Part shown: positions 3,500 to 20,369 of the stretch, piece by piece
How the letters are laid out: each line of letters opens with the position of its first letter
Numbering within the stretch: the first letter of the stretch is position 1
Source of the DNA: a virus
Length of the DNA: 20,470 nucleotides
Strand: one strand, 5' to 3'
Virus record (IMG/VR): IMGVR_UViG_3300035660_000102
Location: 1 to 20,470 of that record
Position numbers and translations under genes: made by a program
The notes under the pieces: model-generated
What the model saw: only the letters and a program-made list of their open reading frames with translations
What the model was told of the DNA's origin: nothing
Database searches by the model: none

Positions 3500-3583
3500 T
3501 TTCTCCCCTCTCCATCCCCTCCCCCCATTTTTGTTTCTTGAAAATGGGGGGACAGAGGGGGGCGGGAGGGATTGGGGGTAGGG
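3500..3583 (+). repeat. G/C-rich palindromic repeat, copy 1
   Basis: 84 bp in the gap upstream of the 90-residue gene. The core dyad is CCCCCCATTTT / AAAATGGGGGG around a nine-base loop, followed by a G-rich tail ending in GGGGGTAGGG. Copy 2 at 3606-3689 matches it at all but a few positions. Orientation is defined by the G-rich tail lying on the right of the plus strand. Confidence 0.85.
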
Positions 3584-3605: not shown

Positions 3606-3689
3606 TTTCTCCCCTCTCCATCCCCTCCCCCCATTTTTCGTTCTTGAAAATGGGGGGACAAAGGGGGGCGGGAGGGGTTGGGGGTGGGG
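3606..3689 (+). repeat. G/C-rich palindromic repeat, copy 2
   Basis: A second 84-bp copy, 106 bp from the first in direct orientation. Differences are concentrated in the loop (TCG instead of TGT) and tail. The tail, GGGGTTGGGGGTGGGG, runs up to the stop codon of the 122-residue gene at 3690, so the repeat fills the intergenic gap completely. Confidence 0.85.
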
Positions 3690-4058
3690 CTACTCCACGG
3701 TCACGTGGAATGTCCCGGTCTTCGTATCTCCTCCGGCTGCAACCACGATCTTCACCCGGTCGGCGGCCGCCACGATCTTGTCGTTGACGGCGGTCCCGCT
3801 CCCGGCATACAGGGCCGCCACGCCGGCCGTGCTGTGCGTGGCTTGGCGCGGCGCCCGCGTCGCCGAAGCATTGACGTTATCCTCAGCCCAGATGGTCTCG
3901 CCAGTGGCCTCCAGCGTGATCGTGAAATCCACGCCGTCTGCGAAATCGGTCTTGCCATAACGCACCTGCGAGATGCGCCCCGAAAAAACGGGGGTGTAAC
4001 CGCTGCCGCTACCGTCAGCGGCGGTGGTAATCGAAACTGTATGGCGTTTGATTGTCAT
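3690..4058 (-). CDS. Phage head-module structural protein, unclassified
   Basis: A 122-residue all-beta protein: MTIKRHTVSITTAADGSGSG, a GRISQVRYGKTDFADGVDFT segment, an ETIWAEDNVNASATRAPRQA segment, and a C-terminus with ADRVKIVVAAGGDTKTGTFH. The pattern 'DFADGVDFTITLEATGE.iw...N.n.sat..PRq' is one I associate with short proteins after the capsid gene in siphoviruses; no function is known to me. The ATG at 4058 has a GAGGTGA Shine-Dalgarno four bases upstream. G-rich palindromes lie immediately on both sides (3606-3689 and 4082-4118), so it is an isolated cistron between hairpins. Confidence 0.55.
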   Translation of the reverse strand: MTIKRHTVSITTAADGSGSGYTPVFSGRISQVRYGKTDFADGVDFTITLEATGETIWAEDNVNASATRAPRQATHSTAGVAALYAGSGTAVNDKIVAAADRVKIVVAAGGDTKTGTFHVTVE

Positions 4059-4081
4059 GGTTCACCTCATTTCTTTTCGTT

Positions 4082-4118
4082 CCCCTCTCCATTTGATGTT
4101 ATTGCAAATGGAGAGGGG
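4082..4118 (+). repeat. G/C-rich palindromic repeat, copy 3 (perfect 14-bp stem)
   Basis: CCCCTCTCCATTTG (4082-4095) pairs perfectly with CAAATGGAGAGGGG (4105-4118) around a nine-base loop. A short G-rich tail follows on the plus strand to about 4130. It occupies the gap between the 122-residue and 322-residue genes. In the mRNA there is no U-run after the stem, so it is not a canonical intrinsic terminator. Confidence 0.85.
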
Positions 4119-4142
4119 TAAGGGGTGAGGCAGGAGACGTAT

Positions 4143-5111: not shown

Positions 5112-5126
5112 ATTATTTTTCCTTTT

Positions 5127-5174
5127 CTCTCCCCCCATTTTTGTTCTATAAAATGGGGGGAGTTGGAGGGGGGT
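5127..5174 (+). repeat. G/C-rich palindromic repeat, copy 4a (tandem unit 1)
   Basis: A 48-bp unit with stem CTCCCCCCATTTT / AAAATGGGGGGAG and an eight-base loop, followed by a GTTGGAGGGGGG tail. It is repeated head-to-tail in the next 48 bp with one difference. Confidence 0.9.
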
Positions 5175-5222
5175 CTCTCCCCCCATTTTTGTTCTATAAA
5201 ATGGGGGGAGTTGGAGGGGGGC
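5175..5222 (+). repeat. G/C-rich palindromic repeat, copy 4b (tandem unit 2)
   Basis: The second 48-bp unit, identical to 5127-5174 except for the last base. The near identity implies a very recent duplication. Together the two units fill almost all of the gap between the decoration-like gene (stop at 5226) and the beta-helix gene (start at 5111). Confidence 0.9.
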
Positions 5223-5639: not shown

Positions 5640-5659
5640 GTTCTTTTTCTCCTTCTTTT

Positions 5660-5730
5660 CCCCTCTCCATTTGCTGTATTTCTTGCCCCCGCTTTTTGGG
5701 GGGTGCAAATGGGGAAGGGTTGGGGGTGGG
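5660..5730 (+). repeat. G/C-rich palindromic repeat, copy 5 (nested palindrome)
   Basis: The outer arms CCATTTGC (5667-5674) and GCAAATGG (5705-5712) continue imperfectly into C-rich and G-rich flanks. The interior contains a second dyad, CCCCC (5686-5690) with GGGGGG (5698-5703). It looks like one palindrome nested in the loop of another. The tail GGTTGGGGGTGGGG is on the plus strand as in the other copies. Confidence 0.75.
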
Positions 5731-5734
5731 GCTT

Positions 5735-5790
5735 CCCCCCTCTCCAAATGGTGTTTTCCCATTTGGGGAGGGGTTGGGGGTGGGGTGGGG
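5735..5790 (+). repeat. G/C-rich palindromic repeat, copy 6, with quadruplex-capable tail
   Basis: CCCCTCTCCAAATGG (5737-5751) pairs with CCATTTGGGGAGGGG (5759-5773) with one G-T-type mismatch. The plus strand at 5765-5790 holds five runs of at least four G separated by one or two bases, which meets the usual G-quadruplex pattern. It lies just after the capsid gene stop at 5806 in the direction of transcription, so the G-rich strand is the template strand. Confidence 0.85.
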
Positions 5791-5805: not shown

Positions 5806-7008
5806 TTACGCCAGCTTCACGCGGGCGAATGCCTCGCCTAGCACGGGCATGCCATCCGATTCCAGCCGGCCGATGAAACCGACCTGGTTGGTGGCCGCAT
5901 ACAGCTCGTTCAGGCGCTGGATGGCAAAGTCCAGCGCATCCGCGTACCACCAGAACGAGAAATCACCCAGCATGCCGACGTACTGCCCGGTCGTGAAAGT
6001 GTTGGGTGCATACTCGCTGGCGAAGACCGGGAAGCCCATCAGCCGGTCGGGTTCGCCCACGCGTATCGCATTCGGGTCCCAGATGTAATCGCCAGCGTCG
6101 TTCTGCAGCTTGGCGATCTGCTTGATCGCATCCCGGTGGAAGATCCAGCGCGCCTTCGGCCAGTAGCCCGCCTTCAGGCTGTACTTGGCCTCCAGCAGGC
6201 CGTCCGTCTGGATGCTGGTGGTGGTATTGCCGGTCGAAACGTCCCGGCTGGTCGGGATGCCGTCCGCCGAGGCGGTAAATACGCCCAGCGGTTGGTTGGC
6301 GCCCGAACCGGTCATGCCGGCCTTCTCGAATGAGACCTGGAATTTGTACGCCAGGCGCTGGATGACCAGGCTCTCTACGTCCGGGGTCAGGCGCAGCAGC
6401 TTGTTGCTGACTTTCAGCAGCTTGGCCAGCGGCTTGGGGGTCAGCTCGCGCTTGCCGAACGCCATCGTGCTGTCCGTGCCGCCGATCAGCAGCTCGCTGG
6501 TCCAGTCCGCATCCGCCGGGTCGGCTTCCAGGGTTGGAACGCCCAATGAAGCCGCGCTCGCCACCGGGTTGGGGGTGCCCCATTGCCGCATGTAGGTCAC
6601 GTTGTCGATCGCCTTGATCAACTTGTTGACGAATTGCTGCGGAGGGACGTAGTACCCGCCCTGGGTATCCGCGTCCGCCTGCAAGGCGCGCACTTCGGGC
6701 TGGACTGCGCCGGAACGCAGATAAGCATCCCAGGCCCGGTTGACCTTTTCGGCGGCCGGATTGGCGCGCCCCTCGCCGCCCGGCAGTTCCGGGGTGCTGG
6801 TAGGCAGCGCCAGGTCGCGCTCCAGCGCTTCCTGCTTCTCGATCATCGTGATCTGGGCGTCGAGCTTCTCCACATCCGCCATATAGGCGTTCCAGGAGTT
6901 CTGCTCTTCCGCCGTCAGGTCACGCTTTTCCTCGTCAGCGCGATCGATCGACTCACGCGCGTTAGCCACCAGGGTGGCCTTTTTCTGTCGAAGTTCGATG
7001 GATTTCAC
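5806..7008 (-). CDS. HK97-fold major capsid protein
   Basis: 400 residues from a GTG at 7008. AGGAG lies seven bases upstream, whereas the upstream in-frame ATG at 7095 only reads through AT palindromes. Residues 1 to about 60 are a charged helical delta-type scaffold (MKSIELRQKKATLVANARES, then DEEKRDLTAEEQNSWNAYMA). The mature domain begins near residue 106 with LQADADTQGGYYVPPQQF, the typical post-cleavage region of HK97 gp5-like capsids. It continues with the KRELTPKPLAKLLKVSNKLL spine-helix region and GAGYW-type A-domain sequences such as LKAGYWPKARWIFHRDAI, ending FIGRLESDGMPVLGEAFARV. It builds the icosahedral shell and is probably processed by the protease encoded just upstream. Length and order match the family. 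The exact cleavage site is not determined. Confidence 0.93.
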   Translation of the reverse strand: MKSIELRQKKATLVANARESIDRADEEKRDLTAEEQNSWNAYMADVEKLDAQITMIEKQEALERDLALPTSTPELPGGEGRANPAAEKVNRAWDAYLRSGAVQPEVRALQADADTQGGYYVPPQQFVNKLIKAIDNVTYMRQWGTPNPVASAASLGVPTLEADPADADWTSELLIGGTDSTMAFGKRELTPKPLAKLLKVSNKLLRLTPDVESLVIQRLAYKFQVSFEKAGMTGSGANQPLGVFTASADGIPTSRDVSTGNTTTSIQTDGLLEAKYSLKAGYWPKARWIFHRDAIKQIAKLQNDAGDYIWDPNAIRVGEPDRLMGFPVFASEYAPNTFTTGQYVGMLGDFSFWWYADALDFAIQRLNELYAATNQVGFIGRLESDGMPVLGEAFARVKLA

Positions 7009-7025
7009 GTTATTTCTCCTTTTCC

Positions 7026-7109
7026 TTGTTGTATGGCAAAATTTATTTTGCCCTTGTTGTATGGCAAATTTTATTTTGCCATCGTTATATGGCAAAATTT
7101 ATTTTGCCA
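7026..7109 (-). repeat. Three tandem 28-bp units of the AT-core palindrome
   Basis: Units at 7026-7053, 7054-7081 and 7082-7109 each contain an 18-bp dyad of the type GGCAAAATTTATTTTGCC (7035-7052, a variant at 7063-7080, and 7091-7108). They fill the gap between protease and capsid genes. The unit at 7082-7109 overlaps the 3' end of the protease gene and carries its TAA at 7099-7101. In the mRNA they would give three successive hairpins just upstream of the capsid Shine-Dalgarno. Confidence 0.9.
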
Positions 7110-7995
7110 TCGCCAGTTCCAGCCGCCGCCTGAGCATCTTTAGGCGCACCTGCACCATCTGCTCGGCAGCCTCCTCGCCGCCTGGCAAGGGCGGGATCTG
7201 GCTCTGAAGTTCTTGGAATTTCGAGCGCACAGAGACACTCGTTTTAGGGTATGCCGGGAAAGTCACCGGCGATACGTCATACAATCGTTTACACCCGCCC
7301 CGCTTCAGTGTGCGGGTGACCTTTTCATCTTTGGTCACCCATTCATCGCCCCCCTTCGCCACTGCAAACGAAAATGACATCTGGTCCACGTCGCCGCGCC
7401 GGATGGGTTCCAGCACCATGTCGTTGATCAGCGCCGTCGCCGGCGGCGTGATGTGGATATACAATCCTTTTTCGTCCTCTTTCACGGCCAGCGTCTGGCT
7501 CTTGGTTCGCCCCAGCACGATGTTGGTGTCATGGTTGAATAGGGCGCGCGTGTCGTCCTCCATACAGTTCTCGAAGAAGCCTGGCTCGATCATCTCTATA
7601 AAGTACAGGTCTTCCGAAGGCGAGTTGAACACCGCCGCATAACCATCAATGACCGGCGCAGTTGGCTCTCCTGCCAATCGCAGCTCGGCGAATCGCACCA
7701 CACGCTGCTCGATTTCCTGCTCCTCGCCGGATTTTTCCTCCTCAGCCGGCTCGAAGGAAATATATTCGATATCATTGTCCTTGAGCCATTGTTTGGCCTC
7801 GGCTACCGTGTATAGATCTTTAGGGAAGCGATAGGCCTGGACAGTCATCGTATCTTCCCCTTTGAGTTTTCCGATAATCATCACGACGCCGCCCTTCCCG
7901 CCCTTTGATTTCGGCAATTCTTTTCTCCGAAAACTATCATGCTCAAAATCATCCGGGTCTCGAACGCGCGCCGAGTGCTCAGATGGATATGGCAT
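7099..7995 (-). CDS. HK97-family prohead protease with N-terminal extension
   Basis: 298 residues; the ATG at 7995 has a strong GGAGGTGA Shine-Dalgarno four bases upstream. Residues about 1-85 form an accessory module (MPYPSEHSARVRDPDDF, and VQAYRFPKDLYTVAEAKQWL leading to DIEYISFEPA) resembling the small XkdF-like N-terminal segments seen in other phage proteins. Residues about 98-255 are the peptidase U35 domain: VIDGYAAVFNSPSEDLYF, the catalytic His in ALFNHD (H155), the catalytic Ser in MSFSFAV (S207), and the ending YDVSPVTFPAYPKTSV. It cleaves the capsid delta domain and itself during prohead maturation. Its last codons (AMAK-stop) are contributed by an AT palindrome. Its start overlaps the end of the upstream endonuclease gene by 17 bp. 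Confidence 0.9.
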   Translation of the reverse strand: MPYPSEHSARVRDPDDFEHDSFRRKELPKSKGGKGGVVMIIGKLKGEDTMTVQAYRFPKDLYTVAEAKQWLKDNDIEYISFEPAEEEKSGEEQEIEQRVVRFAELRLAGEPTAPVIDGYAAVFNSPSEDLYFIEMIEPGFFENCMEDDTRALFNHDTNIVLGRTKSQTLAVKEDEKGLYIHITPPATALINDMVLEPIRRGDVDQMSFSFAVAKGGDEWVTKDEKVTRTLKRGGCKRLYDVSPVTFPAYPKTSVSVRSKFQELQSQIPPLPGGEEAAEQMVQVRLKMLRRRLELAMAK

Positions 7996-8677
7996 TTGTC
8001 ACCTCCAATCGTTCTAACAATACAGATTCTGGCAATTCTTTGACTTCATGTTCCCAAAAAATTATTCGTTGCCATCCGTACTTTGACAAAATCTTTTCTT
8101 TTTCTTTATCTCTAAGAATAACATTATCTAAGTTGTGCCAATAATCTCCGAACACTTCAAGAATCACTTTCTGACCATTGCAATTAACAAAATCGGGGTT
8201 TATCTTTTCTATCCAAAACTTACCGTTGCCAACATATTCATAAGGCAAATTGTGTTTATTGATGATTTCCAAGAGTACTTTTTCTGGCTTAGTTGGCTTT
8301 TTGGTACAGGCGCGTCTCATATTTCGCGACCATTCAATCTTCTCATCTTCGTTTTTATTCGCCCAAGTTCTCTTTCCATTCGCGCTGACTATGAAAGCAA
8401 GTTTCTTCATTCCTTTCTCAGAAATATGCCATTCGAATAAAATGCCTCTTGCCTTCGAATACCATAGACCCCAACATTTCGCGTTACAAAAATGCCAGTT
8501 CTGATGGGCTACTTTGTAAGGAATTCTCAATAAGATATTCCCACAATGAGCACAATTCACGGCAATTCGATTACGTAATTTAGCAGCGCATTTTTCGATA
8601 CTCTCAGAACTCCTCTTAATACCGGTTACTCTCGGATCGCCTTTGATAAAAGATGTAGAAGTTTTATGGCGTGGCAT
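7979..8677 (-). CDS. Free-standing homing-type endonuclease, Vsr/DUF559-like PD-(D/E)XK fold with zinc finger
   Basis: A 232-residue protein in clearly AT-rich DNA compared with both neighbours. Residues 42-68 hold a zinc-finger-like set (C42, C45, C64, C68). A middle region rich in Lys, Arg and Asn (EKGMKKLAFIVSANGKRTWA) looks like NUMOD-type DNA-binding motifs. Residues about 129-225 match the Vsr/DUF559 nuclease pattern: KPTKPEKVLLEIINKHNLPY, then NPDF with D162, then VILEVFGDYWHN with E174 and H181, then GWQRIIFWEHEV. Such genes in phages are mobile endonucleases lying between conserved genes, here between portal and protease. The start has AAGGA nine bases upstream, 14 bp after the portal stop. 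The 3' end overlaps the protease start and covers its Shine-Dalgarno. The exact target site is unknown. Confidence 0.75.
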   Translation of the reverse strand: MPRHKTSTSFIKGDPRVTGIKRSSESIEKCAAKLRNRIAVNCAHCGNILLRIPYKVAHQNWHFCNAKCWGLWYSKARGILFEWHISEKGMKKLAFIVSANGKRTWANKNEDEKIEWSRNMRRACTKKPTKPEKVLLEIINKHNLPYEYVGNGKFWIEKINPDFVNCNGQKVILEVFGDYWHNLDNVILRDKEKEKILSKYGWQRIIFWEHEVKELPESVLLERLEVTNAISI

Positions 8678-8691
8678 CTTTCACTTTCCTT

Positions 8692-10794
8692 TCAAAACCA
8701 GGCCGCCGTCAGGCACTCACATCCGTTATGTGCAGGCGGGTGCCCGATATCTCCGGCTGGCGTCAGCGGCCCGTCAGAGCCTTCCGGTTGGTAATCCTGG
8801 CCGGCATCGATAAAATTCTTCTTCACGCTGATGACTTGCCCATCTAATGCTGAGCAATAATCGCAGGCGGTGCCGCTGGCAACCCAAACAATGGTAATGA
8901 TCCCGGCTGCCACATAAACGAATTTGGCAACCGCGTTCCCTTCCCTTACGCTTTCCCACATGGCGATCTCATCCGCCCGCGTATCTTCCCAGTCGTCCAA
9001 CTCGCCATCCAGGGCTTCGAGCGGGTCACCCTCCGCAGCCAGGGCCTCCGTTACCAGTTTGCGCACTTGCGCCTCCGATATGCCCACATGCCGGGTTGCA
9101 TAGCCGGCAATATATTCCTTGACGAATTGCTCCGTCCCGGCATCCCAACCGGTTGACTTGATCTCGTCCCCGGCCGCCCCTGCGATCATCTCGCCGTAAG
9201 CCGTCATCACCGGGGCAAACTGGCGCTGCATCCAATCCCGGTGCTCTCGATAGAACTGTTCCAGCCAGAGATTGAAACTCGCCGCATCCCGTACAGCGAA
9301 ATTTATTTCGCTGTCCCGCTTCGAACGAGCATCCCGTACAGCGAAATTTATTTCGCTATCCCGCTTCGAACGAGAACCAAGCATCTTCCTGGCCGCCTCT
9401 TTCACGTCATGCACCTCACGCCGCAGCACGCGCCTCGCCACGTCCCGGATCACCGGCCGTTGCGCCATCATCAACCTCCGCCGGTAAGCCACCACCGACC
9501 TCGCCCGTTCCTCTTTCTCTTCTCTCCCCCTATTTTCCGAACTTGAAAATGGGGGGAGCTGGAGGGGGGCTGTTCTAAGCGCAGTTTGGGAGCCGCCCCC
9601 GATGGGCGCCATATTGAACGGCATCCAATAAGTCTTTCCCTCCCCATCCGGCAGCGGGTTGCGATTCTCGAATTCTCTCCATTCATCTGCGTTGATCGTC
9701 CCATTCTGGCGCTGGATCTGGAGGGCAGTATTACGGCTCACGGCATCCCCGCGCAGTAGACCGTCAATCAGGTGCTCGAAAAAATAAATCCGTCGTTCCT
9801 CCTGAGTCAGCAGGGAAAGAGAAAGCGCCTGCTCCCACCTCACCAGCCACGGCCGCAGCGTATGCGTGACGAAGCTGAGCATGAACTGTTCGACGCTTGC
9901 ATAAGTCGCCGCCTGGCTGTGCTCCTCCAACATGGCCAGCGGCACCCGCAGGATACGGGCGATCTCGGCCACCTGGAAGCGCCGCGTTTCGAGGAATTGC
10001 GCATCTCCCGGCGGAATGCCGATCTCTTTTACCTGCATCCCCTCCTCGGCCACGAAGACGCCGTGCGATTTATCCGCGCCGCCATGTTCCTCTATAAATG
10101 ATGTCTTCAGGTTTTCCTGGGCTTTGGGACTGAGCTGCTTCGGATGCTCCAGGACGATCCCCGGCCGCGCGTCGTTGGCAAAAAACTTTCCGCCATACTT
10201 TTCGGTTGCCAGGGCCAGCGCCAGGGCGTTTCGGGCCAGATAGACCAGCGAATAACCTACCAGCCCGTCGAAGCCGAAGCCCGGGATGTGCATAATATCG
10301 TCAGCCGGAAAATCCCTCGGCGTCCCATCCGGCTTTCGATAATGGTAGATGCGCTTGCCATTCACACGCTCCACGCTCATCCGGTCCGGGCGCAGCGGCC
10401 AGAGTTCGATGATCTGCCCGCCATTATTGTAGATCTTCTGGCTAAAACAGTTGCCCCAGCTCACCAGGTGGCTTTGCAGCAGCTCACGGAAGACCATGCT
10501 TGTGTGCTCCGGATTAGGCGCATCGTGCACGAGAGTGTAATAAGGATGATCCACAGCGCGCTCTTTCCCGCCGCCCGACAGCCGCCGGTATAGGAACAAC
10601 GGCAGGCTTGATACTCCCTCTGAAAGAACCCGCACCCCCGCCAGGAACGTGGTCACGGTCAGGGCCGTGTCCGGGTCCATGTTGTCCCCCGTCCAGGTCT
10701 CCCCGTAACCTTTGATGATTTTCCCGGGCGGCTCCTGGCTCACCTTCCAATTCGATCCAATCGTCGCTCGCTCCTCGACCAGTCTGCGTAGCAT
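8692..10794 (-). CDS. Portal protein with C-terminal MuF-like (head morphogenesis) domain
   Basis: 700 residues from the ATG at 10794, which shares its A with the TGA of the upstream gene (TGATG). Residues 1 to about 400 are an HK97-type portal: LTVTTFLAGVRVLSEGVSSL, a LWPLRPDRMSVERVNGKRIY segment, DIMHIPGFGFDGLVGYSLV, and EIARILRVPLAML followed by a Gln-rich start of the crown helix. It forms the dodecameric DNA channel. Residues about 505-700 are a MuF-like minor head domain ending in a cysteine/histidine set (C644, C647, then GHPPAHNGCEC with H685, H689, C692, C694). Fusion of portal and MuF domains is unusual, since they are often separate genes. Two repeat-derived segments interrupt the linker: residues about 406-421 (G-rich palindrome) and 475-504 (two 15-residue units, RSKRDSEINFAVRDA). 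The frame is intact throughout. Confidence 0.9.
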   Translation of the reverse strand: MLRRLVEERATIGSNWKVSQEPPGKIIKGYGETWTGDNMDPDTALTVTTFLAGVRVLSEGVSSLPLFLYRRLSGGGKERAVDHPYYTLVHDAPNPEHTSMVFRELLQSHLVSWGNCFSQKIYNNGGQIIELWPLRPDRMSVERVNGKRIYHYRKPDGTPRDFPADDIMHIPGFGFDGLVGYSLVYLARNALALALATEKYGGKFFANDARPGIVLEHPKQLSPKAQENLKTSFIEEHGGADKSHGVFVAEEGMQVKEIGIPPGDAQFLETRRFQVAEIARILRVPLAMLEEHSQAATYASVEQFMLSFVTHTLRPWLVRWEQALSLSLLTQEERRIYFFEHLIDGLLRGDAVSRNTALQIQRQNGTINADEWREFENRNPLPDGEGKTYWMPFNMAPIGGGSQTALRTAPLQLPPFSSSENRGREEKEERARSVVAYRRRLMMAQRPVIRDVARRVLRREVHDVKEAARKMLGSRSKRDSEINFAVRDARSKRDSEINFAVRDAASFNLWLEQFYREHRDWMQRQFAPVMTAYGEMIAGAAGDEIKSTGWDAGTEQFVKEYIAGYATRHVGISEAQVRKLVTEALAAEGDPLEALDGELDDWEDTRADEIAMWESVREGNAVAKFVYVAAGIITIVWVASGTACDYCSALDGQVISVKKNFIDAGQDYQPEGSDGPLTPAGDIGHPPAHNGCECLTAAWF
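9284..9373 (-). repeat. In-frame tandem 45-bp AT-core palindrome pair inside the portal gene
   Basis: Units 9284-9328 and 9329-9373 differ at one base. Each holds the dyad AGCGAAATTTATTTCGCT (9295-9312 and 9340-9357). They encode RSKRDSEINFAVRDA twice without disturbing the frame. Compared with the intergenic GGCAAAATTTATTTTGCC form, the outer pair and the fourth pair have changed on both arms together. Confidence 0.9.
9534..9579 (+). repeat. G/C-rich palindromic repeat, copy 7, in frame inside the portal gene
   Basis: CTCCCCCTATTTT (9534-9546) pairs with AAAATGGGGGGAG (9555-9567) with one mismatch, followed by a CTGGAGGGGGG tail, very similar to the intergenic copies at 5127-5222. It encodes about residues 406-421 of the portal (APLQLPPFSSSEN) in the linker between portal and MuF domains. 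Confidence 0.85.
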
Positions 10795-10997
10795 CAACTA
10801 CCCCGTTTCGGTCTGCCTGTCCAATCGCGGTAAACAGGCGATAGCGGCGTCGTTAGCCATAGACTGAGCGCCAGCAGAATGCCGCCAACCACGGCCAGCG
10901 CCCAGTCCCATCCCAGGGCAATGCCCAGCCCGATGAAAATAAACACCAGGCCCGCCCAGAACATGATGTCCGTTGCTTCGATTTTGGCTGGTTTCAT
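10794..10997 (-). CDS. Small two-helix membrane protein
   Basis: 67 residues with two hydrophobic segments, about 11-30 (IMFWAGLVFIFIGLGIALGW) and about 33-52 (ALAVVGGILLALSLWLTTPL), then a short basic tail (YRDWTGRPKRGS). It has no recognisable catalytic motif and no known family that I can name; small membrane proteins between terminase and portal genes are common in siphoviruses but poorly understood. Its TGA overlaps the portal ATG by one base, so it is translationally coupled to portal. No Shine-Dalgarno is visible upstream of its ATG, because a chromosomal-type repeat (11000-11037) begins two bases before it. It is the first gene after the promoter at 11185-11213. Confidence 0.65.
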   Translation of the reverse strand: MKPAKIEATDIMFWAGLVFIFIGLGIALGWDWALAVVGGILLALSLWLTTPLSPVYRDWTGRPKRGS

Positions 10998-11213: not shown

Positions 11214-11297
11214 TCAGTGTTTCGGTAGAAACGGGATTTCCAACCCTTGACTATTACGCCTTATGGCGAGTTTGCAAACCTAGAATGATGTTCTTGG

Positions 11298-11344
11298 TAC
11301 GGCAAAATTCATTTTGCCCCTCGCATCTTACACCCTCACCATCC
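11298..11344 (-). repeat. 47-bp direct repeat, copy A (downstream of the 143-residue gene)
   Basis: It matches 11834-11880 at 44 of 47 positions, and all three differences are C/T. It contains the AT-core palindrome (11301-11318) and a duplicate of the last codons of the large terminase gene (GMVRV-stop sense on the minus strand), here stranded outside terL. Confidence 0.9.
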
Positions 11345-11352
11345 GGTTTTCG

Positions 11353-11784
11353 TCAAGTGGATTGCGGTGGCGGCAGCAAAAACATTGACGGCGCCATCAT
11401 CTGCAACTCGTTCCCCGCCACCTGGGAAGCCATCCGGCCATCCGGCAGCATAAGATGGCTGAAAAAAGCAGACCGCGCCCCGACCACCACCGCATATAGG
11501 CACACGCTTTTAACATAGTGATAAAGCATCGTTGCCGCCTGCACTCTGGCAGCCATCACTTTGCCGGTTTTGGACTGAAGGACCGGCCATACGATCTTAA
11601 AAGCATCCTCCTCCATGCTGAAAACCAGCATGAATGCAGCCCGGCCATATCCATCGCTGCCGAAGCCCTCGGCTTGAACTATGCCCCCCAATTCTTCAAT
11701 CTGCCGTTTGCCCCGCTCCATCCAAACATCCGAGCCGCTTCGTCCGGTCTGCCAGAAATTCACCTCTTCGGCATATTTTTGCAT
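11353..11784 (-). CDS. Hypothetical protein in a repeat-bounded cassette
   Basis: 143 residues; the ATG at 11784 has AGGAG six bases upstream. I do not recognise a family. The N-terminus is hydrophilic (MQKYAEEVNFWQTGRSGSDV, then RGKRQIEELGGIVQAEGFGS). The middle is hydrophobic and helical (FMLVFSMEEDAFKIVWPVLQ, AARVQAATMLYHYVKSVCLY, then AVVVGARSAFFSHLMLPDGR), and the C-terminus is Met/Pro rich (LQMMAPSMFLLPPPQST). The segment around 85-120 could be an amphipathic helix rather than a membrane span. The gene sits between two 47-bp direct repeats, one of which overlaps the end of terL. That suggests an inserted accessory gene (a moron) carried with its own ribosome-binding site. I propose no function. 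Confidence 0.6.
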   Translation of the reverse strand: MQKYAEEVNFWQTGRSGSDVWMERGKRQIEELGGIVQAEGFGSDGYGRAAFMLVFSMEEDAFKIVWPVLQSKTGKVMAARVQAATMLYHYVKSVCLYAVVVGARSAFFSHLMLPDGRMASQVAGNELQMMAPSMFLLPPPQST

Positions 11785-11833
11785 CTAAGTCTCCTTTATC
11801 AACATCGGCGAATGCTTCTGTTTATTTGTTTCG

Positions 11834-11880
11834 TATGGCAAAATTTATTTTGCCCCTTGCATCTTACACCCTCACCATCC
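11834..11880 (-). repeat. 47-bp direct repeat, copy B (overlaps the 3' end of terL)
   Basis: The partner of 11298-11344. It includes the terminal GMVRV-stop codons of terL (11864-11880) and the AT-core palindrome GGCAAAATTTATTTTGCC at 11837-11854. The distance between copies is 536 bp, exactly enclosing the 143-residue gene. Confidence 0.9.
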
Positions 11881-14389
11881 CGCGCTCCTCATACACCGAC
11901 CGCCCACTCTCTCCCTGGTTGCGCAGCGCACGATCCAGACCCATCAGCAGCGCGACGATCCCATCGATCTTTTCCTTCGATTTCTCCTTGTCCGGCTTGA
12001 TATTACCCGCCGGGTCGGTCTTGGCGATCAGGTTGTCCGCCATCCAGGTTAGAATCGGGTTGCCGCCATGCGCCAGCTTGCCTGAGGCCACCAGCCGCTC
12101 CAGGTCTTTCATCGGCGGCGACATGCTGCGGTAGCCCTGCCCGAACTGCACCATCGGCACGCCGATTTTCTCGATCAACGATGTGACGCGCGCCGCCCCC
12201 CAGCGGTCGAAGGGAATCTCCATGATTTGGAACGCCTGGGCATCTTGCTCGATCTCCTCGAATATCCAATCGTAATCAATCGAGTTGCCCGGCGTGGCGT
12301 TGAGATAACCCTCGGCCAGCCACTTGTCGTAAGGCACGTTGTCATTCTTGCAGCGCTCGAGCAGATTGTCTTCCGGGATCCAGAAACGGGGGATGACAAA
12401 CCACGGCTCATCTTCCGTCAGTGGGGTGAAGACGTGGACCAGGGCGGTGATATCCAATGTCGAGGAGAGATCCAACCCTGAATAGCAAGGCCGCCCCGCT
12501 AAATATTCGGGCAGTTCCAAGCAGGCCACAGGTCCGGCGCAACGCCGCCAGGCATCCATCGCCATCCACTTGATCTCGCCCTGCACCCACACGTTCAATT
12601 CCTTCTGTAGAAAAGCGTTCAGCGCGCTGGTCATACTCTTAGCCCGCGCTGCCTTCTCCTTCATATCCGCCCATTTCTTACTTACCCCCAGCAGCGGATT
12701 CGATTTGGGCCAGACATTCTCATTCCGCCAGTCGTCTTTCAGGCTCCCATCATGATTTGTATCCAGCGTATAAATGATCCCAAACCAACTATCATCCTCT
12801 ACGATCCCCTCCAGGACCTGGCGCGTGTACTCGCGTTTCTCGAAACAGACTCCTTGCCGGCTGGTCCCGGCAGTGGTAATCGCAATGATCAACGGCTGCC
12901 GCCGTGATCCAGTGGATGTTTCGAGCACGTCCCAGACATCTCGGGTCTTGTGCGCGTGCAATTCATCCAATATCGCCGCATGGACGTTCAATCCATCCAT
13001 CGTATCGCTATCCGCGCCCAACGGCTCGAATTTCTGATCCCGATCTATCTGGTGCAGGTTATCCTTGAACGCTACCACCCCGTGCCGCCTCAGCACCGGT
13101 GACTTCTTGACCATGCGCACCGCCTCCCCATGCACGATGCGCGCCTGGTCACGTTTCGTTGCAGCTGTATTATGACTAAATAAGCCCTCGGCAAATAGAG
13201 TACTTGTTGTTGTCTCAATTGCTACAACTTCACGTTCCCCCAGAAACTCAATAGCTGTCACGCTCGGCCATTTGCAGCCGCGATTGGGAGCACGTCCCTC
13301 GTACCATTTATCAGCGGTTCTTAATAAACGTTCCGGTCGAATTTCTCCAAGAAACCGAAGGCATTCGTATGCCCCCGCGATCTCGAAATAGCCTGTTCCG
13401 CTTTTGTGCAGTCTGATTGACGATACATCGAAAAAGCGACGAATAAGTAATTCGCGGACCCGTTCCATCTCTGGACCAAGACGCTGTGCGAACGCAATCC
13501 GGAAACCAGAGCGAGGCCCTCTCCCATGAAAACAGCCTTCCCCATCAAATATTCCGGCGAGATAACCGGCATCCCTTGATACATCGTCGGACCACGGCAG
13601 ACCAAGGCTTCGGAGCTTGGTCCCCACGTGGAGTTTGTCAGTTCGAAGCCATTGTTGATTTGTAGAACCGCGCGTTCCTTTCCCTCGACAAAGCCATAGA
13701 TGCCCTTCAGAAGAAATGATTTCCCGCCCATCATTTAAGCGTATCCGGTAGCAGGGTAGAGAAACTCTGCCCATTGAAGTTACCGCAGCCCGACGAAATT
13801 TCCTTTGACATCCAAAGGACGGTGGATCCTGGTCAAATGCTATAATCGGACATCCCTTCGATAGTTCTCCAACGGGGCGCCACCGTAGATCTCCCCAAAG
13901 AACTCGTGTGGACGGATCCAGGCAATATACTTCCGCACCCGCCTCGCCGCCCGGGACTTCATCGGCAAACGCCAGGTAATTCCCGATTCCCGCCGCCCAG
14001 GTGGATTTGCCATTCTTCCTCGCAATTTCGATATAAGCGAACCGGAACCGACGCGTGCCGCTGGTATCCTCGCGCTTCCCACCCCTCTCAATGATCCAGC
14101 GCGGGTGCGGAGCGCGCTTCCAGCCAAAGATGCACCACGTGGTGAATTGCTGGCTTGGCTCCAATTCGATTGGCTGGCCAGCCCATTCTCCCTTCGAGTG
14201 ACAAAGTATCTTGAAGAAGTCGAGCGCGCGCTGCGCTGCCTTTTCATCGAAAACCAACCCGCGCTCGGCGCCGTGCTTCCGATCGTCCAGATGACGCTGG
14301 CACGCCTTTTTCACCAGGCGGCCAGCCACAACTTCCCCCCGCGCCACCTCGCGCGCATAACGCTCAGCTGGATGCAATTTGCGCGACAT
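11864..14389 (-). CDS. terL: Large terminase subunit (TerL), interrupted by an in-frame intein
   Basis: 841 residues including a 252-residue intein; about 589 after splicing, which fits HK97/lambda-type TerL. The ATPase domain has a Walker A-like IARKNGKSTW (G127, K128, S129), Walker B ILDE (473-476, D475/E476) and motif III ITTAG (504-508). The nuclease domain has SGLDLSS with D640, IPFDRWGA with D728 and KIDGIVALLMGLDRA with D809, the expected RNase H-like acidic triad. It pumps DNA into the prohead and cuts it at packaging ends. The intein begins at C156 and ends at N407. Joined exteins read GAEVY then TAATKRDQARIV, a normal TerL motif. The ATG overlaps the TerS stop by one base (TAATG). 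All key residues are present. Confidence 0.93.
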   Translation of the reverse strand: MSRKLHPAERYAREVARGEVVAGRLVKKACQRHLDDRKHGAERGLVFDEKAAQRALDFFKILCHSKGEWAGQPIELEPSQQFTTWCIFGWKRAPHPRWIIERGGKREDTSGTRRFRFAYIEIARKNGKSTWAAGIGNYLAFADEVPGGEAGAEVYCLDPSTRVLWGDLRWRPVGELSKGCPIIAFDQDPPSFGCQRKFRRAAVTSMGRVSLPCYRIRLNDGREIISSEGHLWLCRGKGTRGSTNQQWLRTDKLHVGTKLRSLGLPWSDDVSRDAGYLAGIFDGEGCFHGRGPRSGFRIAFAQRLGPEMERVRELLIRRFFDVSSIRLHKSGTGYFEIAGAYECLRFLGEIRPERLLRTADKWYEGRAPNRGCKWPSVTAIEFLGEREVVAIETTTSTLFAEGLFSHNTAATKRDQARIVHGEAVRMVKKSPVLRRHGVVAFKDNLHQIDRDQKFEPLGADSDTMDGLNVHAAILDELHAHKTRDVWDVLETSTGSRRQPLIIAITTAGTSRQGVCFEKREYTRQVLEGIVEDDSWFGIIYTLDTNHDGSLKDDWRNENVWPKSNPLLGVSKKWADMKEKAARAKSMTSALNAFLQKELNVWVQGEIKWMAMDAWRRCAGPVACLELPEYLAGRPCYSGLDLSSTLDITALVHVFTPLTEDEPWFVIPRFWIPEDNLLERCKNDNVPYDKWLAEGYLNATPGNSIDYDWIFEEIEQDAQAFQIMEIPFDRWGAARVTSLIEKIGVPMVQFGQGYRSMSPPMKDLERLVASGKLAHGGNPILTWMADNLIAKTDPAGNIKPDKEKSKEKIDGIVALLMGLDRALRNQGESGRSVYEERGMVRV
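13169..13924 (-). mobile_element. Intein in terL with a single LAGLIDADG motif
   Basis: 252 codons from Cys156 to Asn407 of the precursor. Block A starts CLDPSTRVLWGDLRWRPVGE. Block B is REIISSEGHLWLC, with its His at intein position 75. The homing-nuclease motif is DAGYLAGIFDGEGCF (precursor 273-287). Block F is VVAIETTTSTLFAEG, and block G ends FSHN followed by Thr408. Cys1, the block B His, the penultimate His and the terminal Asn are all present, so splicing should work. Only one LAGLIDADG motif is visible. That makes it shorter than typical two-motif inteins, so the nuclease may act as a dimer or be degenerating. The insertion lies between the Walker A and Walker B motifs. Confidence 0.9.
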
Positions 14390-16175: not shown

Positions 16176-16613
16176 TCAAATCACCGCATGGGGTGGCGGG
16201 ATTGTGGTCGTCATATTTTGCAATCCTCCATCAGCAAACAATGTTTCACGGACCGGGATCCTGACCCTTTGCCCACCACGCGCGTAGACCCTATCCCCGT
16301 CTGGCCAAGGATGGGCTTTGGCTTCCAAATTAGCCAGGTTTTGGATTGCTTGCAGCAGCCAGGCTGGCAACTGGTGCGGCAGCCGGGAAAGTTTTCGTTT
16401 ACAGGTCAGACAGATCGGCGACAATCCAAGCCGAATTTGGGTCTCCGGCTTTCGTGGCTCGTATCCCGTCGCGATCATCTGTGCCAAGCGCGGATTGGGC
16501 TTTCCCTCCGGTGTGAGCACGCCATAGGCAATTGAAACCTTCGGCCAGGATTTCAATTCTGCATGTTTTTGGCTTAGTTTTTCGGCCAGATGTATCAATG
16601 ATCGACTTTTCAT
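16176..16613 (-). CDS. Hypothetical phage protein
   Basis: 145 residues from the ATG at 16613 (MKSRSLIHLAEKLSQKHAEL). It has a helical N-terminus, then SWPKVSIAYGVLTPEGKPNP, RLAQMIATGYEPRKPETQIR, and LSPICLTCKRKLSRLPHQLP with a single CxxC. The C-terminal half is Leu/Ala rich, then ends RVRIPVRETLFADG and a Pro/Thr tail. I do not recognise the family, and there is no complete zinc site or catalytic motif. Its ribosome-binding region (AAGG before the ATG) is in the 3' arm of a perfect 7-bp hairpin (16622-16640), so its translation may be restrained. Its position is in the cluster of small genes between the nuclease and packaging genes. Confidence 0.5.
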   Translation of the reverse strand: MKSRSLIHLAEKLSQKHAELKSWPKVSIAYGVLTPEGKPNPRLAQMIATGYEPRKPETQIRLGLSPICLTCKRKLSRLPHQLPAWLLQAIQNLANLEAKAHPWPDGDRVYARGGQRVRIPVRETLFADGGLQNMTTTIPPPHAVI

Positions 16614-18524: not shown

Positions 18525-20369
18525 TCAGCCCCCCCCCATTTTCGCCGTAACGACCACCGTCTTCCCATCCAGGCCCTGATATTCCTCCAAGCCTTTCAGG
18601 TAGGGCCGAGCCAGGTACAGCCAGTTGTCCGGGAGCTTGACGCCCCAGGTTTTCGCCACGCCTTGCAGGTGCTTTGCCGTGGCCAGCGGGCCATTCTTTT
18701 TGATCGGGAAATTTACAATGTGATCCAGCGCCCGATCGGCCATTTCTTGTCGCAGCAGCTCGAGCTGCTGCCCCTTGCTGGCTGCCTTGAATTTCTTATC
18801 AGGATCCCTTTGGAGCAGCGCCAACAGCGGTTCGACCTTTTCTACGCCTGCAAAGGCCGGGGCGAAGACCGGCGCAGCCACGTTCTCGATGAAATTATTG
18901 CTTTGCATCCGGTTCTCCAATTCGATATTCTGCTGCCGTCGTCCTTCTGCATACTTGCTTTCCTGCGCGCTGCGATCGTTATCCTTCTTACGTTTCTCGA
19001 TCAGCTTATGGGCCTTCTTGCCGACGGCGATCGCCTGCACAGTATAGCTGTCGGTGAAATCATGCTTATTGCCATACATGGTCTGGGGATCGTTGTGTTT
19101 CGCCTGCAGGCAGACGTCGCTGCGGGCATCGAAGAGCTCTTTGATTTTGCCTTTGTCGTTCCACTGACTCTTGAGCGCAAAGGTTTCCTTCCCGTGCTCC
19201 TTCGGATCGTAGACCGGGATACTGAGTTCTTTTGACAGCTGCCGGAGCTCGGCCTGGCTCCAGGCTTTGACCTTGCGCTTGTGGCAGGCCGCGAAAGCAC
19301 AATAGTGCTGCTTGTCAATCCGGGCATAGAACGGGCAGGCCGGGCAGGCCGGCGGAGCGATCAAATGCACCAGGCGCTCGATGTCGTTCTCGGGGGCGCC
19401 ATCGGCGATCAGTTTCTGCACAAGTTCTGGCTTCCTGAGACAAAGTACCTTATTCCACTTCCTCAGATTGGCTCGCAGCTCGGCGGTAAATTCCTGGCCG
19501 AGCGCCTTGGCTTCCTCGGCTTCGCTGATCACGGGCAGCAGATCGTTCGGGAAGTCCTTCTTGCTCATGGCCAGCGGCCATAATCCGATTCCGGCCTGCG
19601 GCGCATCCTGGTCCCGCCAGGAGCCCCACATCTCGACGCCTTTCATGTTTCTTTTCAACTGGCTATTGACAACCTCCTCGATATCTGCATTCGGCTTGGA
19701 GAGCTGACTGGTCATCTCCTTCGCCGCTGCCTCGCCCGCCGCGCGCTGGACGGTGAGCAGCTTGCGCGCCGTCCCGATCGTCATCTCGCCGGCAGCCAAT
19801 TTCTCCTGGGCCACCGGCGGCAGGTCCAGAAGCCGCACCGTGCCGCGCACCGTGGCATCATTCACGCCGAAGAATTCCCCAGCCTTCTGGCTGGTTACGT
19901 GAAACTCATCCATGTAGCATTTCATCGCCGCCGCCTGCTCGACCGGGTTCAGATCCTTCCGTTGGATGTTCTCACTGATTGCCATCTCGAACATCTGCAG
20001 ATCGGTCAAACCCTGCACATCAAGCGGCATCTCATGGAAACTGCCGCCGGCTTTCATTGTCGTGCGGACCATCTCTACCAACGCCGGAGGAATGCCGTCT
20101 TCAAAGCCGATTTCGATGCTGGCTAGCAAGCGGAATGCCAGCAGCCTCCGGTGTCCGATGGCCAGTTGGTATTCCCCCTCTCCAAATGGTGTACTTCCAT
20201 TTGGGGAGGGCTGGGGTGGGGCGGGTGGGGCGGGACGTCCTACCGGCACCTGCAAAAGCCCATCCCTTGCGATCGAGAACGCCAGCTCCTCGATGCCGGC
20301 CGGATCGTTGCCCTGGCGCGGCTGCCAGGGATTAGGCTCGATATGGTCAAGCTTGATGTTCTCGATCAT
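18525..20369 (-). CDS. ParB-like DNA-binding protein, long form with zinc-type cysteines and an in-frame palindrome
   Basis: 614 residues. The ParB N-domain is KLDHIEPNPWQPRQGNDPAG, IEELAFSIARDGLLQVPVGR, YQLAIGHRRLLAFRLLA and ISENIQRKDLNPVEQAAAMK, with GHRR (72-75) and ENIQR (133-137) as the nucleotide-binding boxes. A helix-turn-helix follows (TSQKAGEFFGVNDATVRGTV, about 159-178). Residues 342-362 hold CPACPF...C....C (C342, C345, C357, C362), a probable zinc site. The remaining 250 residues are helical and unrecognised. ParB-family proteins bind DNA and hydrolyse CTP. No ParA is visible, so partition is not assured; a role as nucleoid-like or replication protein is possible. Residues about 46-65 (APPAPPQPSPNGSTPFGEGE) are a palindrome insertion between two strands of the ParB fold. 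The ATG overlaps an upstream stop (ATGA). Confidence 0.82.
   Translation of the reverse strand: MIENIKLDHIEPNPWQPRQGNDPAGIEELAFSIARDGLLQVPVGRPAPPAPPQPSPNGSTPFGEGEYQLAIGHRRLLAFRLLASIEIGFEDGIPPALVEMVRTTMKAGGSFHEMPLDVQGLTDLQMFEMAISENIQRKDLNPVEQAAAMKCYMDEFHVTSQKAGEFFGVNDATVRGTVRLLDLPPVAQEKLAAGEMTIGTARKLLTVQRAAGEAAAKEMTSQLSKPNADIEEVVNSQLKRNMKGVEMWGSWRDQDAPQAGIGLWPLAMSKKDFPNDLLPVISEAEEAKALGQEFTAELRANLRKWNKVLCLRKPELVQKLIADGAPENDIERLVHLIAPPACPACPFYARIDKQHYCAFAACHKRKVKAWSQAELRQLSKELSIPVYDPKEHGKETFALKSQWNDKGKIKELFDARSDVCLQAKHNDPQTMYGNKHDFTDSYTVQAIAVGKKAHKLIEKRKKDNDRSAQESKYAEGRRQQNIELENRMQSNNFIENVAAPVFAPAFAGVEKVEPLLALLQRDPDKKFKAASKGQQLELLRQEMADRALDHIVNFPIKKNGPLATAKHLQGVAKTWGVKLPDNWLYLARPYLKGLEEYQGLDGKTVVVTAKMGGG
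20176..20234 (+). repeat. G/C-rich palindromic repeat, copy 8, in frame inside the ParB gene
   Basis: CCCTCTCCAAATGG (20176-20189) pairs with CCATTTGGGGAGGG (20197-20210), followed by a G-rich tail to about 20234. It is nearly the same sequence as copy 6 at 5735-5790. It adds about 20 residues rich in Pro and Gly, at the point where ParB proteins normally have a short turn before the YxLxxGHRR strand. Confidence 0.85.

Follow-up and report, generated by a model that had tools for sequence, protein, structure and literature searches.

The DNA analysed here, called the window, is the whole 20,470-nucleotide stretch of the virus record IMGVR_UViG_3300035660_000102. Its minus strand carries a parB-like gene (18525..20369) encoding a protein of 614 residues with ParB_N and HTH_ParB domains (Pfam PF02195, 4e-8, and PF17762, 1.5e-15; TIGR00180). 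The ParB fold was checked with Foldseek, which returned ParB and Noc structures. Within this gene, positions 20172..20231 (minus strand) encode, in frame, 20 ParB residues, APPAPPQPSPNGSTPFGEGE. The segment contains a palindromic core, CCCTCCCCAAATGG-AAGTACA-CCATTTGGAGAGGG (20176..20210, minus strand), which carries the C.A mismatch of the repeat family characterized below. A covariance model of this family matched the ParB copy on the minus strand at 20172-20222 with a score of 62 bits, this copy being part of the training set. The presence of a palindromic repeat in frame in ParB, as stated in the original prediction, was thus confirmed. The extra residues had been placed at 46-65; the stretch exists, but it is shifted by one and spans residues 47-66.

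An intergenic copy was said to repeat the same sequence almost base for base at 5735-5790. Such a copy is indeed found there, and its 35-nt core (5738-5772) is identical to that of ParB (20176-20210) at 32 of 35 positions. However, the C-rich heads of the two copies are unlike, the ParB copy having a doubled CCCCACCC. When the consensus core was searched with 3 mismatches allowed, only the sites at 20176 and 5738 were recovered in the window, against 0.00 in dinucleotide shuffles.

Hairpin strength was considered as stand-alone evidence and dropped. Synonymous-codon shuffling of the first 200 codons can produce stems stronger than the ParB hairpin, in a stretch that is rich in C and G. Since the hairpin alone is unexceptional in such a context, the case for the element in ParB rests on family membership and not on stem strength. 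The same shuffles could be taken to mean that a codon-biased, Pro/Gly-rich loop merely looks palindromic by chance or composition. This reading is refuted by the family match: the core is shared with the intergenic copy and the family consensus never appeared in the shuffles, leaving a negligible probability for a compositional origin.

The loop was then compared between ParB proteins. The observation named beforehand as refuting the prediction was not made: in the homologue alignment that had been set as a check, the 20 residues of the window were missing from all nine ParB relatives, the closest three of which are 69-79% identical. Where the window protein reads GRP, 20 residues and YQL, these three hold 7 or 12 other residues: GRP-IPNVDGK-FQL, a 7-residue loop, in G001 (IMGVR_UViG_3300035660_000035, 79% identity), GRP-TPISPSSVKGTI-FQL in G008 (71%) and GRP-TPTPPPSGKGAI-FQL in L098 (69%). 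The six further relatives are more distant and display other loops at the same place, that of L102 being long and unrelated. Among those listed, GenBank phage ParB relatives reach at most about 32% identity and are too distant to inform on the loop. A covariance-model scan of seven relative loci, including L097 and L098, did not find the element in their ParB genes.

In net length, the window loop exceeds that of G001 by 39 bp and those of G008 and L098 by 24 bp. Both differences are multiples of three and neither corresponds to the length of the element. Comparison with the relatives reveals neither a clean empty site nor a target-site duplication. Because the relatives carry 7, 12 or other residues at this position, the data indicate that a hypervariable loop was replaced or lengthened, and not that a conserved one received an insertion. 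Of the claimed insertion at a loop of a conserved fold, the in-frame location in a loop therefore stands, but the loop already varied and the insertion is not a clean one.

In L098, the loop (TACCCCTACCCCACCACCTTCTGGTAAGGGGGCTATA) has a C-rich 5' side and a G-rich 3' side, and so does the similar loop of G008. As the length differences are not those of the element and these two loops are C-rich, they may represent an element remnant or a C-rich precursor, as judged from their sequences. In another pair of phages (G005 1538 and G007 16858), the flanks of a copy are about 94% identical, and the inner arms differ yet still pair, which suggests that the inner stem of the palindrome can turn over fast. 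It is conceivable, though unlikely, that the common ancestor of the window, G001, G008 and L098 lineages already had an element in this ParB loop. The element would since have decayed in the relatives, and the copy of the window would be the best preserved one or would have been refreshed by gene conversion from the intergenic copies. Both the C-rich and G-rich sides kept in L098 and G008 and the fast change of inner arms elsewhere are consistent with such an ancient occupancy. However, the loop of G001, the closest relative, is not C-rich, and the covariance model detects no element in L097 or L098.

The structure of the N-terminal 230 residues of ParB was predicted with AlphaFold2 (mean pLDDT 87). 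Strands 43-46 and 67-71 flank the loop, which has a pLDDT of about 50 (mean of 51 for residues 51-60), and the helix after strand 67-71 starts at the GHRR motif. This segment of low pLDDT between two predicted strands supports the assignment of the family palindrome to a loop of the ParB fold. The motif follows strand 67-71 and is thus near the loop in sequence, so that the peptide could have gained a function in ParB, for instance by changing CTP binding or partner contacts. We consider this very improbable, as the loop is free to vary in both length and sequence from one relative to another, the predicted confidence is low and the same type of peptide is found in unrelated proteins.

On the minus strand, the covariance model matches nine places in the window, with the portal gene among them. 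The stop codon of the capsid gene is followed, about 20 nt further on, by the intergenic copy sharing the ParB core (5734..5786, minus strand, 78.6 bits). A second intergenic copy (5657..5732, minus strand, 54.7 bits and folding) has an enlarged inner palindrome. The other intergenic matches, also on the minus strand, are a copy with ATTTG inner arms (4079..4131, 65.2 bits), two copies of the TCCCCCCA subfamily (3608..3690, 38.1 bits, and 3515..3568, 30 bits) and a tandem pair of TCCCCCCA-subfamily copies (5126..5222, detected by the covariance model). The palindrome family found at one gene junction differs among three related phages (window 4079-4131, G005 1050-1099, G007 16390-16439), as if some hairpin were needed or tolerated there.

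The portal protein gene (8692..10797, minus strand; PF04860, 5e-101; phrog_12) contains two in-frame palindromic insertions. The first, APLQLPPFSSSENRGREE, is a superfamily copy at about residues 410-426 (9520..9570, minus strand, 30.7 bits). The second belongs to a different family; it is a palindrome repeated in tandem (2 x 45 bp) and encodes residues 475-504 (RSKRDSEINFAVRDA twice; 9284..9373, minus strand). Both insertions are missing in five portal homologues, namely those of the host-genome loci L219, L221 and L223 and those of G005 and G007, which are 69% identical to the window portal over 400 residues. A pattern search with the GAAATAAATTTC palindrome of the portal gene matched no other viral contig. 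Another palindrome, GGCAAAATAAATTTTGCC, is present in several intergenic copies (window 6995-7110 and 11280-11891), and the tandem repeat of the portal gene is similar to its core.

Two other genes of the window displayed features of a different kind. The large terminase gene (window 11864-14389) is interrupted in frame by an intein-like segment that spans about residues 155-405 and includes a LAGLIDADG-like domain, and relatives align only on either side of it. A free-standing gene encoding a Vsr/DUF559-like endonuclease (window 7979-8677) separates the prohead protease gene from the portal gene; its product is possibly a homing endonuclease.

Scanning IMG/VR with patterns and reading whole records yielded 127 non-redundant copies of the element, mostly from phage records. 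The family consensus is [AG]CCCCACCCC[CT]RRC-CCCTCCCC-variable inner stem-purine-rich loop-GGAGAGGG-G; it ends with GGGGAGA and is about 50 bp long. In 37 aligned copies, 93% of the cells pair, with far lower values for slid structures, and 64 cells changed on both sides, compared to 22.5 in shuffles. The inner stem measures 5.3 bp, versus 2.6 bp after swapping arms between copies. A C.A mismatch occupies one outer-stem pair in 30 of the 37 aligned copies, the scan patterns having favoured that form, and in 20 of 31 whole-record copies, which carry part of the same bias. With its C-rich head, its stem of 13-15 bp, the common C.A mismatch and a purine-rich loop, the element is, on these sequence features, a member of a REP-like superfamily. 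Rfam has no family for it and returned sub-threshold matches only, nearly all to microRNA families. A published description was not found in the open-access literature searched (most subscription papers lie outside it), nor did any paper match when a piece of the repeat was used as a text query.

According to ORF-based gene calls, and not annotation, 52 of the collected copies lie between two same-strand ORFs and 38 adjoin one. The median distance from the upstream stop codon to the element is 5 nt, and in 11 cases the stop overlaps the first base of the element. Typically, an intergenic phage copy is preceded by a stop codon and followed by a start codon, with its C-rich side at the upstream end. 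This placement would suit a selected inter-cistron RNA hairpin acting as an mRNA stabiliser, a processing site or a translational spacer, in which case the ParB copy would regulate the parB message. The covarying stem and the different palindrome families at the same junction in related phages point in the same direction. However, such a hairpin is not needed in the middle of a gene, where the in-frame copies sit, host copies in genes run in both orientations, and the parB genes of relatives lack the element. A role of this type thus appears rather improbable.

In-frame copies were also found in other genes. Among phage proteins, they are absent from homologues for a primase-like protein (G003 compared with L063) and a head protease (L080 compared with L066), and a protein of 1,700-1,900 residues has one in L064 and L075 and none in L081 and G006. 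Host genes with in-frame copies encode an Eco57I-type methylase (which has a second such peptide too), an amylosucrase-like enzyme, a zinc dehydrogenase (two genomes), CofE, CofD, CinA, a GHMP kinase and ValS; absence in homologues was compared for ValS. The ValS loop preceding TLADSWIWA (L160-L182) carries different repeat-like peptides depending on the genome (TPxPSP, SGNQVSGNQ or QTVDGGQKT), with four peptides of the TPxPSP type and many variants in 23 Chloroflexota genomes. This loop is a possible hot spot for coding repeats. Since it holds different repeats in different genomes, the sites of the element are loops that were already variable. The sense phage copies inside long ORFs show a frame preference: 8 of 9 are read in the frame giving PxPSPN..GEG at the start, for an open-frame expectation of about 36%. 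The corresponding p value is about 0.002, or about 0.004 with one shared site counted once, in a small sample that includes two L082 copies (one at 562) without homologue comparison.

Of 61 genomes from one family of the Chloroflexota, 56 contain the superfamily according to the covariance model. The search of the repeat against host and phage genomes, which had also been proposed as a check, was therefore positive on both sides, with most of the collected copies coming from phages. Set apart at the outset by its occurrence in a phage, the repeat is carried by phages but also by Chloroflexota chromosomes, where it is found in frame too. Exact-pattern searches had suggested phage-specificity, which the covariance-model matches ruled out. 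Similarly, restriction to the sense strand holds for most phage copies and was ruled out by the host copies, found inside genes in both orientations. The exact AAATGG arm pattern was found in one contig only among 84,980 genomes; this contig belongs to a Chloroflexi MAG, and the pattern lies there in phage-like structural genes. Portal relatives were present in 7 of 120 genomes of that MAG's family, the one in which the superfamily was detected (five matches at 41-50%, the others at 27-33%). Because of this pattern, the portal relatives and the frequency of the superfamily in host genomes, the host of the window phage is likely a member of the Chloroflexota.

A Y1 transposase (PF01797) was not found in 22 virus records; the host genome G010 gave six PF01797 matches. 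The element might be mobilised by a host enzyme. In E. coli, TnpA-REP depends both on a bulge in the stem and on the GTAG motif (PMC8266576). As in this system, a conserved stem mismatch makes the hairpin asymmetric and could allow strand-specific recognition (PMC8266576), but the element has a single C.A mismatch and no GTAG motif. GTAG/CGTC REPs are also short multi-copy stem-loops located mostly between same-strand genes and often touching a stop codon, with some copies inside ORFs and complementary stem variants (PMC3733652). Intragenic REPs, as well as others that provide a gene with its stop codon, have been described (Di Nocera et al. 2013, PMC3733652). Unlike them, the element has a C-rich head and a G-rich tail, occurs on phages and hosts and has no linked RAYT that we could find. 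Moreover, no terminal GTAG or CGTC tetranucleotide is conserved in the aligned copies.

The element had also been compared with the Rickettsia palindromic elements (RPEs), which measure about 150 bp and, in Rickettsia, frequently lie within genes in the correct frame (Ogata et al. 2000, 2002, as summarized in PMC10969869). As far as that summary describes them, both are palindromic repeats found between genes and in frame in unrelated protein genes, where the peptide is apparently tolerated. The element likewise forms a multi-copy palindromic family with a covarying stem, and lies in frame where homologues lack it in ParB, the portal, the primase-like protein, the head protease and the large phage protein. 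However, in this comparison of descriptions, it is about 50 bp long instead of about 150 bp, belongs to Chloroflexota and their phages, is mostly intergenic and sits in already variable loops. The comparison holds for behavior but not for descent. RU elements, intragenic MITE-like repeats of enterobacteria, are also small open-frame repeats inside genes, but those described measure 103-168 bp and differ in sequence (PMC2759123). The element behaves like RPEs and REPs, yet fails one defining feature of each (size and tag, respectively).

Altogether, the 60-bp stretch of ParB is most probably a copy of a REP-like element common to Chloroflexota and their phages, which settled in a turn and is tolerated as a loop. 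This is based on family membership, the open frame, absence from relatives, the loop in the predicted structure and recurrence in other genes. In phages, the usual site of the element is the gap between two same-strand genes. One copy would have moved into the ParB gene, possibly at the cost of some residues present there before, and would now occupy the turn that separates two beta-strands directly ahead of the GHRR motif. Being of suitable length and in frame, it would be translated into a loop rich in Pro, Ser, Gly and Asn, probably disordered and tolerated by ParB, the protein presumably still working and the effect on it being neutral. Points that speak against this scenario are the length differences of 39 and 24 bp, the missing target-site duplication and clean empty site, the C-rich loops of L098 and G008, which may stem from an older element that decayed in relatives, and the lack of a detected transposase.

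More tentatively, with slightly less than an even chance of being right, Chloroflexota and their phages may share one mobile palindrome superfamily that has repeatedly turned coding. It would fill hypervariable loops of unrelated and even essential proteins (ValS, CofD, CofE, CinA, ParB, portal), mainly in one frame, with phages carrying it between hosts.

Coding palindromes are best known from Rickettsia, and their role in creating new protein segments is a standing idea. To our knowledge, natural test sets for coding palindromes that generate protein segments are few. Peptides of the PTPSPN...GEGG type in metagenome proteins call for caution, since they can be translated repeats and not conserved domains. 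The superfamily described here counts many copies per genome, spans many species, hosts and phages alike, and offers direct comparisons of proteins with and without the segment.
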